DNA of 64,000 bases from Bacteroidales bacterium (lineage in GTDB: Bacteria; Bacteroidota; Bacteroidia; Bacteroidales; UBA932). Of the stretch, positions 2,380 to 6,591 are shown one piece after another (within the stretch, counting starts at the first letter, position 1; each line of letters begins with the position of its first letter). The notes beneath the pieces were generated by a model. That model made no database searches and was not told the DNA's origin. It worked only from the letters and a program-made list of their open reading frames with translations. The stretch covers positions 28,459 to 92,458 of the forward strand of contig JAKSJN010000009.1 of the NCBI GenBank assembly GCA_024402135.1. The letters run 5' to 3'. Made by a program: the position numbers and the translations under genes.

Positions 2380-2461
2380 GCGGGCGTGTTGAAATTGGTA
2401 GACAAGCCAGACTTAGGATCTGGTGCCTTCGTGTGTATGGGTTCGAGTCCCTTCGCCCGCA
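2380..2461 (+). tRNA. tRNA-Leu(TAG)
   Basis: Full cloverleaf with the long variable arm of class II tRNAs. The acceptor stem is GCGGGCG paired with CGCCCGC, and the anticodon stem CCAGA/TCTGG encloses CTTAGGA, giving anticodon TAG. The T-loop lies in GGGTTCGAGTCCC. CCA is not encoded. The gene sits at the left boundary of an AT-rich accessory segment, so it is a plausible past integration site. Confidence 0.95.
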
Positions 2462-2470
2462 CGAAAATAT

Positions 2471-2506
2471 AAGCTAACTTATTGATCTACAATAGGTTAG
2501 CTTTTT
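2471..2506 (+). terminator. intrinsic terminator after tRNA-Leu
   Basis: AAGCTAAC (2471-2478) pairs with GTTAGCTT (2496-2503), extended inside by TATTG/CAATA around loop ATCTA, and followed by a T run to 2506. Confidence 0.85.
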
Positions 2507-2548
2507 GATTTATCGAATTCGCACAACAAAAACAGATTTACTGTTCAA

Positions 2549-2734
2549 TTGTGCACTTTAGCATGCAAAGATCATGGAATTAGGGTAATCTATTATTCTG
2601 ATTTACAGATTCTGTATCCTTACTTTGTTGTTGAGGACTTTGAAACTTTGCTTCATCTTATTAAAGAACGGGGCATTGTGAAGGATAAAAGTTTGTGGGA
2701 AGATCCCGAGCTTCCTCTATTATTTGAAGAATAG
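2549..2734 (+). pseudogene. possible gene remnant, unknown
   Basis: A 61-codon open frame beginning at TTG, low in GC and acidic at its end (WEDPELPLLFEE). It has no recognisable domain and no good start signal; a hairpin (GCACAA / TTGTGC with AACAG/CTGTT inside, 2521-2554) covers its first codons. It could be the tail of a gene truncated when the surrounding segment was inserted, or a chance open frame. Confidence 0.25.
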
Positions 2735-2786
2735 TGGGCATTAAGTAGCCCGGTTATTAAGCTGTTTTGTTTTTTAGGAAAATATT

Positions 2787-2816
2787 TTTGGAGGACTAAA
2801 AATATTACTACATTTG
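2787..2816 (+). promoter_or_regulatory. promoter of the candidate ncRNA upstream of the AIPR gene
   Basis: TTTG at 2787-2790 and TACATTTG at 2809-2816 with 18 bases between them match the Bacteroidota -33/-7 pattern. The expected start site, a few bases beyond the -7 box, coincides with the first base of the first hairpin at 2821. Confidence 0.7.
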
Positions 2817-2820
2817 CAGT

Positions 2821-2981
2821 GTATTCGGATGAATACTGGCTTAGTCAGCCATTGAGCCTGGTTATACCGCTCACGGAAAATGTAGCCCTTAGGAATTAGG
2901 GATTTGTTCATAGCTTGGTTGTTACCCTCGACCATTTTTTTGAGTGCTACGTTGTTCCGTTAAAGAGACAGCGTCTTTTTT
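2821..2981 (+). ncRNA. candidate structured ncRNA or RNA leader linked to the AIPR gene
   Basis: No open frame is seen, but several inverted repeats are. Hairpin GTATTC/GAATAC lies at 2821-2836 and hairpin TGGCT/AGCCA at 2837-2851. A third, GAGC..GGT/ACC..GCTC, spans 2854-2872. A long-range helix pairs ACGGAA (2873-2878) with TTCCGT (2955-2960) and GTAGC (2882-2886) with GCTAC (2946-2950). It encloses a weak stem CCT/AGG (2887-2900) and GGTTG/CGACC (2917-2933). The RNA ends in a terminator hairpin at 2962-2980. I do not recognise a named RNA family. It may be an independent small RNA or an attenuating leader. A reverse transcriptase, which a retron would need, is absent. Confidence 0.55.
2962..2981 (+). 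terminator. intrinsic terminator ending the candidate ncRNA
   Basis: AAAGAGAC (2962-2969) pairs with GTCTTTTT (2973-2980) across loop AGC with one G-T pair, and its 3' arm is itself the T run. It lies 34 bases before the AIPR start, so the AIPR mRNA probably arises by read-through. Confidence 0.65.
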
Positions 2982-3014
2982 ATTATGTAATTGAGGGAGC
3001 AACTAGCATTGATT

Positions 3015-4358
3015 ATGGAACAGAATCCAACTTACACTTACATTAAGCTTGAATCAGGAAACACTCCTCAGCTCTCAAGAGAAGGTCTTAAACTCTGTAG
3101 AATTTCTTCAAGCATTTCTCCTTTCACCTTTATCAAACTCTTTGCAGCGGCGGACAATAAAATTAATCCACGTGTCGCAAAAGAGAATCAGATCACACAG
3201 GACATTCGTGCAACACTCGCCACAGAGCCTGAGATATTCTGGCTGAAAAGCAAGGGAATCGTTGTTGCGACACAGAACTGTAAACTCTCTGATAGAAACA
3301 GAGTCGGTATTACTCTTTCTGAGGATGTCGACAGAGAAGGTATAATGGATGGAGGCCATAACACCCTGGCTGTAGCACAGTTTCTTCTTGTTAATCTCTT
3401 CCCTGAGAATAAAATGATCAAGGACTGGGCTGGGATGAAGGAGTTCTGGGCAGAGAATACTGATGAGATTGTCGAGAGATTCAATAAAAATGTCAACAGT
3501 GGAATGTTTAACTTCTCTATTCCGATTGAGATTATCTTCCCGTCTGACGAAGAAGGTGCCTTTGAGGAATATCTCGAGTTTATTAATAGTATCTGTGATG
3601 GCCGTAACGCCAATGTCCAGCTTAGAGATTCGGCCAAAGATAATCAGGTCGGCATTTATGACGGCTTCAAAGATCTCATTGCTTGCAAGGACGATGTAAT
3701 CTGGAAAACCGGTATGCCTGGAAAGATAAAAGTTGAGAATGTTGTTAGCATTGCCTCTTTGCTTTTCATTTCACTTCAGGAGAAGAATCTCCTTCCCCCT
3801 AGCTTAAGTACTCTCAATCCAGTATCTATCTATAGTGGTAGCGGCAAGTGTGTTGATTTCTTCGGTGAGGTGATCCGCCATCAGGATGTCTCTGTTAAAG
3901 ATGGAGATAAGTATGTCATCACAAATCCAAGAGTAAAGTCTGCAATGTCTATGATTGACGACCTTCTTAAGTTTTACGATAAGATGTACCTTAAATTCCC
4001 TGCAATTTATCAGAGGACTCCTGGAAAGTTCGGCGGAATAAAAGCCGTGGAGATGAAGAGCAGTAAGTGTCCATTTGGATACTTTGAGGAGGTTATCGAC
4101 TATAAGTATCCTAATGGTTTCTTTATTCCACTCTTCTGTGGCGTGCGTGAGCTCATCACTTATAATGAAACGACAGATACGATTTCATGGATTATCAATC
4201 CCGCCACTATCAATTTTGATGATCTGGACTGTGAAACATATGTCGAAATGATCAAGTTCCTGAATTTCAATCCGCAGAGTGTTGGAAAAGCTGCCATGAT
4301 GTATAAGAACGGTGTTAACACCTTCAACGCATATAAAAATGCAGTACTCAACCGATAA
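3015..4358 (+). CDS. AIPR-family (abortive infection phage resistance) protein
   Basis: A 447-residue cytoplasmic protein resembling the AIPR family of abortive-infection proteins. Characteristic pieces are NPRVAKENQITQDIRATL (from residue 51), EIFWLKSKGIVV (about 73-84), where family members usually read FW..NNGI, and GIMDGGHNTLAVAQ (109-122). Family members act in phage defence, but the biochemical activity of this one is not readable from the sequence. The frame also allows a TTG start at 2991; ATG at 3015 is chosen, with AT-rich codon use unlike the core genes nearby. It stands alone behind the structured RNA and its terminator, which suggests expression limited by that RNA. Defence function is inferred from family and context. 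Confidence 0.65.
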   Translation: MEQNPTYTYIKLESGNTPQLSREGLKLCRISSSISPFTFIKLFAAADNKINPRVAKENQITQDIRATLATEPEIFWLKSKGIVVATQNCKLSDRNRVGITLSEDVDREGIMDGGHNTLAVAQFLLVNLFPENKMIKDWAGMKEFWAENTDEIVERFNKNVNSGMFNFSIPIEIIFPSDEEGAFEEYLEFINSICDGRNANVQLRDSAKDNQVGIYDGFKDLIACKDDVIWKTGMPGKIKVENVVSIASLLFISLQEKNLLPPSLSTLNPVSIYSGSGKCVDFFGEVIRHQDVSVKDGDKYVITNPRVKSAMSMIDDLLKFYDKMYLKFPAIYQRTPGKFGGIKAVEMKSSKCPFGYFEEVIDYKYPNGFFIPLFCGVRELITYNETTDTISWIINPATINFDDLDCETYVEMIKFLNFNPQSVGKAAMMYKNGVNTFNAYKNAVLNR

Positions 4359-4379
4359 TCGATGTTGGCTCCCCAGAAA

Positions 4380-4431
4380 TGGACATGTCCCTCCAGGTTA
4401 ACAGGTTCAACTTTTTGGAGGATTTAGTCCA
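4380..4431 (+). other. structured 3' region of the AIPR transcript
   Basis: A nested inverted repeat: TGGAC (4380-4384) with GTCCA (4427-4431), CCTCCA (4390-4395) with TGGAGG (4416-4421), and GTT/AAC inside. It lies between the AIPR stop and the terminator. It could stabilise the mRNA or be a second small RNA element. Confidence 0.45.
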
Positions 4432-4438
4432 CATGTTT

Positions 4439-4475
4439 AAGAAGCACCGCGTTAAGCGATGCTTCTTATTTTTTT
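4439..4475 (+). terminator. terminator between the convergent AIPR and fic genes
   Basis: AAGAAGCA / TGCTTCTT (4439-4446 and 4460-4467) with CGC/GCG inside, then T residues to 4475. The Fic stop codon overlaps its 3' arm. Confidence 0.8.
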
Positions 4476-5773
4476 ATAATTTGATCGAAGTTGTCTCCTC
4501 TTATGTAAGCCGATTTTACTTTGTTTATTGGAATGCGCTTTATGAAATCTCTATCCACTAATGAATCAAGATCCGTTTTTGCCGTAGTATGGCTGACGGC
4601 AAATCTTGTCTCAATCTCTTTAACTGTGATAACCATTTTGGGGTTATCGCGAACTAATGATAAGATAACGGCTTGCCTTTCATTTATATTTCCGAGTTGC
4701 ATAAAATCTACACTTTGCTGTTTCTGGAGAATTTTCCGCTCAATGTAATTCTTTAGGTCTTTAAACGCTAGATCAAGGACCCTTAAATGATAATTGACAA
4801 AGTAGCCAATATCTTTCCCATCGGCTTCCGCATATAGGAAGGCTTTCTCATAACTTGGCTTGCTTCTGTATATGATTCGCGATATGGACAGATATTCCGT
4901 TAACCAATATCCGCTCTTCAGCATATACCAATAGAACAATGCGCGAGCAGTTCTACCGTTCCCATCGACAAATGGGTGAACATAAGAAACGAGAAAATGG
5001 ATAAAAATTGCCTTTAGAATAGGATGAACGAAAGTGCCATTTATAGAGTCATTAGTATTTACGAACTCGCACAAATCATTCACAAACTCAGGGATGTCTT
5101 TATATGTCGGTGGAGTATGGACTATTTCATGGGTGAGGGAGTTCTCAACCACAACGTCATCGTTAGTCCGGAATCTTCCCGCATCTTTTTCTTCTTCCAA
5201 TGTCTTCCGAGTCATAAGAGAATGTATCTCTAACAACAATCCGGCTGTGAGATTTTCATCCTTATGCTCGACTATAAATCTAATTGAAGCATAGTTGTTG
5301 AAGATCATCTGTTCAGAACGAGTCCTTGGTGAAATTTTCTTTCTCAACATGTCCTTTGCAACCTTCCTCGTAGTTGACGCTCCTTCCATTTGGCTAGATG
5401 AAATAGCCTCTTCCATCAAAGCGGATATCAAGTACCGTTCCCTATCATCTGAAGGAATGATGGAGTTGTTACCCCATGAGCCACCAAAGTTCATGTCAAA
5501 ATTATGGCATAACGCCTGCATTCTATTTGTAATGGGTAATGTTATTCCGTACCTTTCCCATTGAAAGCCTCGTATCATCAATCTGCTGAATTTGACCAAA
5601 GACCATAATTCTTCCGAAGAAATATCTTCTGGCTTCTTTTTATATTTTAAGTCAGTCCAATACCAATATTCATTATTCGCAGTTTGGATAATTGCCTGCA
5701 CATCAGCTCTTTCGTAGAGGGATAAAAACTTCTTATCAAGAGGTTTTGATATCTTTGGGGTTGGTTCTATCAT
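4466..5773 (-). CDS. Fic-family protein with autoinhibitory motif and C-terminal winged helix
   Basis: Fic enzymes usually transfer AMP from ATP to a hydroxyl on a target protein. The 435-residue protein has an N-terminal Fic_N-like region and an inhibitory-helix motif SSQMEG around residues 126-131 (class II Fic). The complete core HPFVDGNGR starts near residue 267, with the catalytic histidine intact. A C-terminal winged-helix-like domain follows (ERQAVILSLVRDNPKM onward). ATG at 5773 (MIEPTPKISK) is preferred to the upstream ATG at 5821, because Fic proteins normally start near this point. It converges with the AIPR gene in the AT-rich segment. Many chromosomal proteins of this class are self-regulated housekeeping enzymes, so a defence role is only possible. 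Confidence 0.88.
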   Translation of the reverse strand: MIEPTPKISKPLDKKFLSLYERADVQAIIQTANNEYWYWTDLKYKKKPEDISSEELWSLVKFSRLMIRGFQWERYGITLPITNRMQALCHNFDMNFGGSWGNNSIIPSDDRERYLISALMEEAISSSQMEGASTTRKVAKDMLRKKISPRTRSEQMIFNNYASIRFIVEHKDENLTAGLLLEIHSLMTRKTLEEEKDAGRFRTNDDVVVENSLTHEIVHTPPTYKDIPEFVNDLCEFVNTNDSINGTFVHPILKAIFIHFLVSYVHPFVDGNGRTARALFYWYMLKSGYWLTEYLSISRIIYRSKPSYEKAFLYAEADGKDIGYFVNYHLRVLDLAFKDLKNYIERKILQKQQSVDFMQLGNINERQAVILSLVRDNPKMVITVKEIETRFAVSHTTAKTDLDSLVDRDFIKRIPINKVKSAYIRGDNFDQIIKK

Positions 5774-6000: not shown

Positions 6001-6039
6001 AAAAAAACGAGGTTGACTAAAAAGTCAACCTCGTTTTTT
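6001..6039 (-). terminator. terminator after the lipoprotein gene
   Basis: GAGGTTGACT / AGTCAACCTC around loop AAAA, flanked by A and T runs on both sides, so it can work on both strands. Confidence 0.85.
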
Positions 6040-6591
6040 CTAATAGTAGCCGTCGAATGGGGTTAGACCCTTGTATTTGATGTCGATGACGGTAGAGTCT
6101 TTGAGTTTGATACTGATGTCGATGACAGAATCCTCGATCTGCTTTCCATTGACATCATGTCTTCCAAAATAATAGGATTTGACTTTCACGGACTTGACAA
6201 GATCGTTGCTGCCTTTATAGACACCCTGATCAAGTTCAACCCCCAAGCCATCAAGCCCATGAGCCCCGCCAAGGCTGAATCCAACAAAAGAAAGATATTG
6301 GCCCGGAGATGTATACTCGGTTCCCTTATACCTGAAACCATTGATATACACCACGGATAGAACTTCATGCCAACTCGGGCCATTTTCATAGTATTCACTG
6401 TACATGTTGAACCGATGAAAAGATCCTTTGGAAGGATTCGAAACACCGCCGCCGACAAAGGCCGACTCGATAGGAACGACCTTCACACCGTCCACAAAGA
6501 TTCCGTTTTTTCCCTTGAAGACATAGTCTTCCTTCGTACAGCCAGCAAGGGCGAGTACGAAAACCAGAAACATGTACAGAGCTTTTCTCAT
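6040..6591 (-). CDS. hypothetical lipoprotein
   Basis: A 183-residue exported protein of unknown function. It begins MRKALYMFLVFVLALAGC, a type II signal peptide whose lipobox cysteine would be lipidated. ATG at 6591 is chosen over 6636 because it starts the signal peptide directly. The mature part is rich in beta-type sequence with no family I recognise. It stands alone between two terminators, at the right edge of the AT-rich segment that follows tRNA-Leu. Confidence 0.7.
   Translation of the reverse strand: MRKALYMFLVFVLALAGCTKEDYVFKGKNGIFVDGVKVVPIESAFVGGGVSNPSKGSFHRFNMYSEYYENGPSWHEVLSVVYINGFRYKGTEYTSPGQYLSFVGFSLGGAHGLDGLGVELDQGVYKGSNDLVKSVKVKSYYFGRHDVNGKQIEDSVIDISIKLKDSTVIDIKYKGLTPFDGYY

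Follow-up and report, generated by a model that had tools for sequence, protein, structure and literature searches.

Few abortive-infection proteins are known to be controlled by an RNA, i.e., the kin of ToxN, AbiF, and AvcD. The type III toxin-antitoxin systems (ToxIN, CptIN, TenpIN) consist of a promoter, an RNA, a terminator, and a gene for a ToxN/AbiQ toxin, and their RNAs contain several structural units that are near-identical sequence repeats, and they have a pseudoknot. The RCd22-AbiF system of Clostridioides difficile is co-transcribed and has two RNA motifs and a Rho-independent terminator, and its RNA binds and neutralises the protein, as described in PMC12373285. The RNA of the AvcI-AvcD system is lost once host transcription stops, according to PMC10511110.

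The locus analysed here lies in a window (the whole stretch of DNA studied, 64,000 nucleotides) from a Bacteroidales genome of 2.6 Mb in 34 contigs, and contains a gene of AIPR, a little-studied family connected with antiviral defence in bacteria, preceded by a structured leader RNA (Table 1). By analogy, the closest tested precedent for this leader is RCd22-AbiF. AbiF with its abiF RNA (RF03085) resembles the window in having one promoter, a leader RNA with hairpins, a terminator, and then the gene, but its protein is Abi_2, Cas13-related instead of AIPR, ParB/Srx-like, its RNA is a different one, and the terminator is not general among the AIPR loci. The type III systems resemble the window in the predicted order of its elements, and most AIPR relatives in the several structural units predicted per RNA, and a pseudoknot is proposed for AIPR leaders too, but they differ in the toxin and in their sequence repeats, which are replaced in the AIPR loci by a hairpin array. 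In AvcID, too, an RNA is paired with a protein outside the ToxN family, and PMC10511110 describes no predicted terminator between the two; its RNA and its protein AvcD, a deoxycytidylate deaminase, differ from those of the AIPR loci.

On the protein side, GmrSD/DUF262, BrxU, SspE, and DndB, which are ParB/Srx or DGQHR-type members of defence systems, resemble the AIPR protein in a ParB/Srx-like N-terminal part and a DGxH motif (PMC4619093). They differ from the AIPR protein of the window, in which no nuclease domain was found by Pfam. We know of no RNA companion for any of them. CsrB/RsmZ-type RNAs likewise contain series of GGA-loop hairpins; the AIPR array differs from these in preceding one gene.

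Table 1. Features of the AIPR locus and its surroundings (positions in the window).
Feature	Position	Strand	Evidence or remark
tRNA-Leu	2380-2462	+	553 nt upstream of AIPR start
61-codon open frame	2549-2734	+	between tRNA-Leu and leader RNA; possibly a gene remnant
Bacteroidota-type promoter (predicted)	2786-2816	+	-33-like TTTTGG (2786-2791), -7 box TAcaTTTG (2809-2816)
Structured leader RNA, whole element	about 2819-2997	+	folding, covariation, covariance models, L007 fold, PB pairing
Hairpin 1, GUAUUC-GGAU-GAAUAC	2821-2836	+	MFE; U-A to C-G change in L007
Hairpin 2, UGGCU-UAGUC-AGCCA	2837-2851	+	MFE; U-A to G-C change in L007
Hairpin 3, GAGC CU GGU UAU ACC GCUC	2854-2872	+	MFE, L007 fold; identical in L007
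Long helix PA, 5' arm	2873-2886	+	MFE; equivalent helix covaries in relatives
HP4, possible inner hairpin CCUUA-GGAAU-UAGGG, GGA in loop	2887-2901	+	by comparison with relatives
Inner hairpin UGGUUG...CGACCA, CCCU in loop	2916-2934	+	consensus scan, centroid fold, L007 MFE
Pseudoknot helix PB (proposed), 5' arm CCCUCGA	2925-2931	+	last three bases also in inner-hairpin stem
Long helix PA, 3' arm	2946-2960	+	MFE
Weak terminator-like hairpin and U-tract	2962-2981	+	stem 2962-2980 in MFE; L007 fold
PB (proposed), 3' arm UUGAGGG	2991-2997	+	ends 18 nt upstream of AUG
AIPR-family protein, 447 aa	3015-4358	+	Pfam; ParB/Srx-like about 22-203, C-terminal part mostly helical
Fic protein, HTH-like C-terminus	4469-5773	-	PADLOC SoFic E 6e-43
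Strong hairpin GAGGTTGACT..AGTCAACCTC, then T run	6008-6041		past the Fic gene region; terminator-like by eye

Anatomy of the Leader RNA and Its Promoter

A sequence-only reading of this DNA had described a promoter whose start site falls on the first base of a hairpin-rich RNA, a long-range helix within it, and an intrinsic terminator 34 bases before the AIPR start. The MFE fold contains three small hairpins, the long helix (14 pairs with one bulge), and a terminator-like hairpin, and thus the observation of a structured RNA ahead of the AIPR gene is confirmed. The fold of positions 2819-2986 has an MFE of -49.4 kcal/mol (z -2.95), and 2 of 200 shuffles were equally good. The terminator is present, though weak, its U-tract ending 34 nt ahead of the ATG; its hairpin is not listed by the consensus scan of the window region, and the hairpin given for the window by the terminator scan over 81 loci overlaps it and takes in some of the long helix. 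HP4 is absent from the window's own MFE, and hairpin 1 is the only one of the three small hairpins with a GGAU loop.

The promoter consensus of Bacteroidota is TAnnTTTG, and a sigma-70-like pair of boxes was considered for the other loci. The first base of the TAcaTTTG box is found 12 nt upstream of hairpin 1. Of the 18 Bacteroidota-type loci, 16 have a TAnnTTTG box no more than 25 nt ahead of hairpin 1, compared with 37 of 3600 random positions, and in 13 of those 16 it stands at exactly -12; among 34 other loci, 23 have a sigma-70-like pair no more than 55 nt ahead of the first hairpin, compared with 288 of 6800 random positions. This register suggests that, in distant phyla, the predicted 5' end of the RNA is the first hairpin. 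The predicted promoter of the window has a register common to its relatives, and the claimed absence of a second promoter agrees with an inspection by eye, which found no further TAnnTTTG between 2819 and 3015.

The tRNA-Leu upstream of the window locus has a counterpart in the Subdoligranulum plasmid locus L003, 484 nt ahead of its AIPR gene, and any tRNA within 1.5 kb was found in only 7 of 87 loci.

The closest relative, L007, comes from a goat reticulum Bacteroidales MAG, and its AIPR protein is 83% identical to that of the window. Its leader, folded alone, has the same layout (z -3.47; 1 of 200 shuffles equally good). The changes in hairpins 1 and 2 (Table 1), read from the alignment, affect both sides of the stems, and the long helix persists, one C-G pair close to its base having become A-U and the outermost A-U pair being lost. 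The first loop of L007 is GGUA, and this locus was counted as having no GGA-loop hairpin. Its PB pairs GCCCUUC with GAAGGGU in the same place as in the window (p 0.13); by our own reading, one C-G pair has changed to U-A between both loci.

The AIPR Protein

The identity proposed for the protein holds, since PF10592 matches, weakly but above its gathering score (26.3 bits against a cut-off of 25), covering only residues 52-122 of 447. The same family matched 45 of 60 relatives scanned at E up to 0.01; four Pfam families were found over these 60 members, and AIPR was the only one found in more than one member. The structure model of the window protein resembles ParB/Srx-fold NTPases, and the ParB/Srx-like part contains an EGIMDGGHN motif, in which D112, G113, G114, and H115 are invariant in 60 sequences and are followed by a nearly invariant N. 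The GmrS and DGQHR domains have R where the AIPR relatives carry N, according to PMC4619093.

The Pfam sequence profiles gave no match to a ToxN/AbiQ/CptN/TenpN toxin in the window protein or in the 60 members, although the structure comparisons would allow a remote relationship of folds, and no Abi_2 domain appeared in the window protein or among the four families of the 60 members. The C-terminal part had no match that would name an activity, and none of the 60 members matched PADLOC-DB 2.0.0 at E up to 0.001.

Distribution of the Gene and Its RNA

Relatives were searched in genome contigs with one genome per species (84,980 species), using an alignment of four proteins as the query, and 118 encoded relatives were found, of which 80 were kept. 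Judging from the record names, we take them to belong to Bacteroidota, Alpha-, Beta-, and Gammaproteobacteria, a Geobacter, Bacillota, Actinomycetota, an Akkermansia, and a Blastocatellia MAG. The IMG/VR database contains one contig with a relative, 50,697 phage records yielded none, and 72,556 plasmid records yielded ten, five of them only 22-23% identical. The AIPR gene of this subfamily is rare and patchy, being present in 2 of 393 genomes of the order and 2 of 398 genomes of the family, the own genome included in both cases.

Most of the relatives examined have a comparable element, with tandem hairpins that have GGAU/GGAC loops from the predicted start, a core, and a long-range helix with its 3' arm close to the start codon. 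An order-wide search of the 393 genomes with the covariance model R1, run with stricter filters that lose weak matches, gave 3 matches at E up to 0.01, 2 of them beside the gene, in the own genome and in G113. The third match, in genome G098 (E 0.0035), considered as an RNA without the gene, was judged false; it overlaps the opposite-strand start of an apparent ribosomal-protein gene.

A 5'-truncated AIPR copy was observed at L020:3223-4008, 64% identical over residues 194-447, and the 10 kb of L020 contain neither an N-terminal AIPR part elsewhere nor a match to the window RNA; this copy is a decayed relative. The Muribaculum MAG locus L065 has a Bacillota-type RNA and a terminator despite its Bacteroidota label, reflecting either a recent transfer or a misbinned contig.

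Covariation and Covariance Models

Covariation was examined for a hand-named structure (hairpins 1-3, PA, and HP4) in 18 Bacteroidota-type loci after plain alignment with MAFFT. Double changes were found in 25 of 28 pairs, and 75.9% of the cells were paired, compared with 58.1% in shuffled and 39-54% in slid controls. When the window, L007, and L002 were left out, the remaining 15 loci gave double changes in 25 of 30 pairs, with 81.5% of cells paired against 60.4%. The three hairpins of 16 proteobacterial-type loci, one of which is the IMG/VR contig, had double changes in 12 of 18 pairs and 87.7% of cells paired against 78.8%. The structure was read from the same sequences, and thus these counts lean towards it; the slid controls and the use of two separate locus groups limit this concern. 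RNAalifold, unaided, proposed only hairpin 3.

A second covariance model, R2, was trained on the 15 loci, with the window left out, and was tested on both strands of 69 other loci (782,083 bases). It gave 22 matches at E up to 10, of which 20, in 20 loci, are located immediately ahead of the AIPR gene and share its strand; the matches outside the training loci include Bacillota and proteobacteria. R2 had no match upstream of the gene in 49 of the 69 left-out loci, L007 included. With default filters, R2 missed the element in the 64-kb window, giving only one chance match elsewhere; with filters off, over 12 kb, the window element ranked first of 7 (12.3 bits, E 0.11). Model R1, whose training set contains the window, scored it at 38.5 bits. 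The window RNA is a divergent member of the family and, given the weak R2 score, it is recognised mainly by its place, its promoter register, its layout, and its relative L007.

Neither the window element nor those of 11 relatives matched a family of Rfam 15, the abiF RNA (RF03085) included, in the cmscan at gathering scores; at E up to 10, for positions 2460-3060, it listed just two other families, both outside the element. The sequence-only reading knew of no named family with this shape, which is consistent with this result, and its own refuting condition, a lack of conserved or covarying helices upstream of related AIPR genes, turned out in its favour. Together, the comparisons support the view that the RNA is a conserved, covarying element tied to this AIPR subfamily in several phyla.

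The Array of GGA-Loop Hairpins

Hairpins were counted in the 250 nt upstream of the start codon in 80 loci (7 of 87 were dropped), with 50 sets of dinucleotide shuffles and two in-gene controls. The 80 loci contain 142 hairpins with GGA in the loop, compared with a mean of 15.0 (maximum 26) in the shuffles and with 18 and 7 in the in-gene controls. At least one such hairpin was found in 69 loci (13.8 in shuffles), at least two in 48 (1.1 in shuffles, maximum 4), and at least three in 22 (0.04 in shuffles). The loops are mainly GGAU (79) and GGAC (19), the others being mixed. The units are not near-identical sequence repeats; the sequence-only reading had stated that tandem repeats are absent, and this holds for the window as far as repeated sequence is concerned, but in most relatives hairpins are repeated in tandem.

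The script rule found no GGA-loop hairpin in 11 of the 80 loci, L007 included, and L016 has two of them with only ~40 nt from the array to the ATG, too short for the core. In a first, over-strict count, no such hairpin was seen for two distant AIPR genes of Enterococcus (about 22% identical), which suggests that the element is tied to this AIPR subfamily and not to AIPR proteins at large. That first count overlooked the perfect GGAU hairpins (e.g., GTTGAT-GGAT-ATCAAC) observed about 100-210 nt ahead of the AIPR gene in L069 and L071, which are included in the 80-locus count.

Long-Range Pairing and the Terminator

In the Bacteroidota-type loci, a segment inside PA can pair with a segment near the AUG (PB), which would form a pseudoknot. 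The combined Fisher P over 18 loci is 6.6e-8, with 6 of the 18 at p 0.05 or below, and the 3' arm of the best helix starts 20-32 nt ahead of the AUG in 16 of the 18; for the window alone, PB is not significant (p 0.19). In the proteobacterial-type loci, GGUUCUGG, part of which belongs to the last array hairpin, pairs with CCAGAACC close to the start, with 89.1% of cells paired but double changes in only 2 of 8 pairs. As the GGUUC arm serves both this last GGA hairpin and the long-range helix, the two would be mutually exclusive, in a switch-like manner. A cruder, energy-based scan for long-range pairing over 79 loci gave a weak signal. Taken together, the comparisons establish the predicted anatomy of the leader, i.e., a start at the first hairpin, the array, the long helix, and, in Bacteroidota-type loci, the proposed pseudoknot.

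A terminator between the RNA and the gene is not general. A terminator-like hairpin was found there in 24 of 81 loci (4.1 in shuffles, maximum 10), among them many loci of Bacillota, some of Actinomycetota, and part of those of Bacteroidota, including the window, where the order is promoter, RNA, terminator-like hairpin, and gene.

Proposed Mechanism and Alternatives

We tentatively favour, at close to an even chance and by analogy with the systems described above, that the RNA is both the 5' leader of the AIPR gene and a companion RNA that may bind and restrain the AIPR protein and limit its expression. Following the logic of RCd22-AbiF and AvcI-AvcD, we take the GGA hairpins as sites where the AIPR protein would dock, whereas PB and the terminator would limit its expression. 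The protein would recognise the GGA hairpin loops of its own RNA, with several sites per RNA, and would be held inactive when bound. PB would crowd the start codon and, with early termination in some loci, expression would be low; we propose that this low expression from the same structure would let the RNA outnumber the protein. A phage that halts or takes over host transcription would cause the loss of the RNA, and the freed NTPase-fold protein would then act. A wider proposal, possible but rather doubtful, is that ParB/Srx-like AIPR proteins with a GGAU-hairpin RNA form a new RNA-leashed defence class, with the RNA as inhibitor and mRNA switch, horizontal transfer over at least five phyla, and the array as a multivalent dock for an oligomeric protein.

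The leader and companion reading is favoured by the array, the covariation, the R2 matches, PB, the linkage of RNA and gene, the lack of a constant partner, the defence genes among the neighbours, and the SoFic gene next door in the window. Against it count the scarcity of the terminator, the two window loops lacking GGAU, the weak R2 score of the window, the loci without an R2 match or a GGA-loop hairpin, the short L016, the PB of the window, the weak energy scan, and the unmatched C-terminal part. The sequence-only reading had held that the RNA restrains or activates the AIPR protein; this claim is partly supported, as the conserved covarying RNA and the order of the elements in the window speak for it, but the protein has no ToxN or Abi_2 match and the terminator is restricted to part of the loci. 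The closeness of the RNA and PB to the start codon fits equally well the main rival, which we consider doubtful, i.e., a purely cis-acting leader whose array would be an operator in the AIPR mRNA with no separate RNA function, so that binding of AIPR or of a host RNA-binding protein would repress translation or favour termination. The location of the RNA immediately ahead of the gene and on its strand (20 of 22 R2 matches), the place of the PB 3' arm in 16 of 18 loci, the switch-like exclusion in the proteobacterial-type loci, and the terminator-like hairpins agree with such a leader, which has a precedent in the control of AbiD1 at its 5'UTR (PMC12373285), but several conserved hairpins and a core kept over phyla would probably be more than an operator needs.

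The linkage of RNA and gene and the several hairpins per RNA could also mean that AIPR activity needs the RNA as a cofactor, i.e., as an activating scaffold or as a sensor in a ribonucleoprotein, and not as an inhibitor. SspE, a ParB/Srx relative by fold match, couples GTP hydrolysis to the recognition of modified DNA, according to PMC13251355, in line with this alternative; we regard it as unlikely, since PB near the AUG and the terminators of some loci would fit restraint better. Finally, the chance folding of AT-rich intergenic sequence, with no functional RNA, could account for the window alone, given its moderate z of -2.95, weak terminator, weak R2 score, and PB p of 0.19, but it is most improbable, as the covariation and hairpin counts over many loci, the R2 test, the similar fold of L007, and the promoter in register already speak against it at the family level.

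Among the literature matches listed, subscription papers aside, no paper linked AIPR to an RNA. If the leader and companion mechanism holds, this would be an RNA-controlled Abi-type gene in which both the RNA and its protein partner are new, and the small RNA-controlled set would gain the AIPR family, together with an RNA family that has no Rfam 15 match, is marked by a defined hairpin motif, and extends over several phyla. Stand-alone AIPR proteins would become testable for their role, with versus without the RNA, and AIPR genes cloned without their leader may misbehave.

Gene Neighbourhood

The neighbours scanned (57 of 74 listed downstream and 49 of 73 listed upstream) include no constant partner gene, with a maximum of 4 members per Pfam family downstream and 2 upstream. 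Several of them match restriction-modification, DndB, DISARM, MADS, or Cas9 models, with at most 3 members per model, and housekeeping genes are also found beside these defence matches, all being raw counts. In the window, the SoFic gene is convergent with the AIPR gene, both forming a small defence-like cluster. Directly upstream of the AIPR gene, L030 and L046 both carry a gene of about 1160 codons that follows another of about 710 codons, a pair that might point to an association with a two-gene system in some proteobacteria. In the Bradyrhizobium loci L070 and L072, a downstream gene of 1048 codons overlaps the AIPR stop codon by a few bases.
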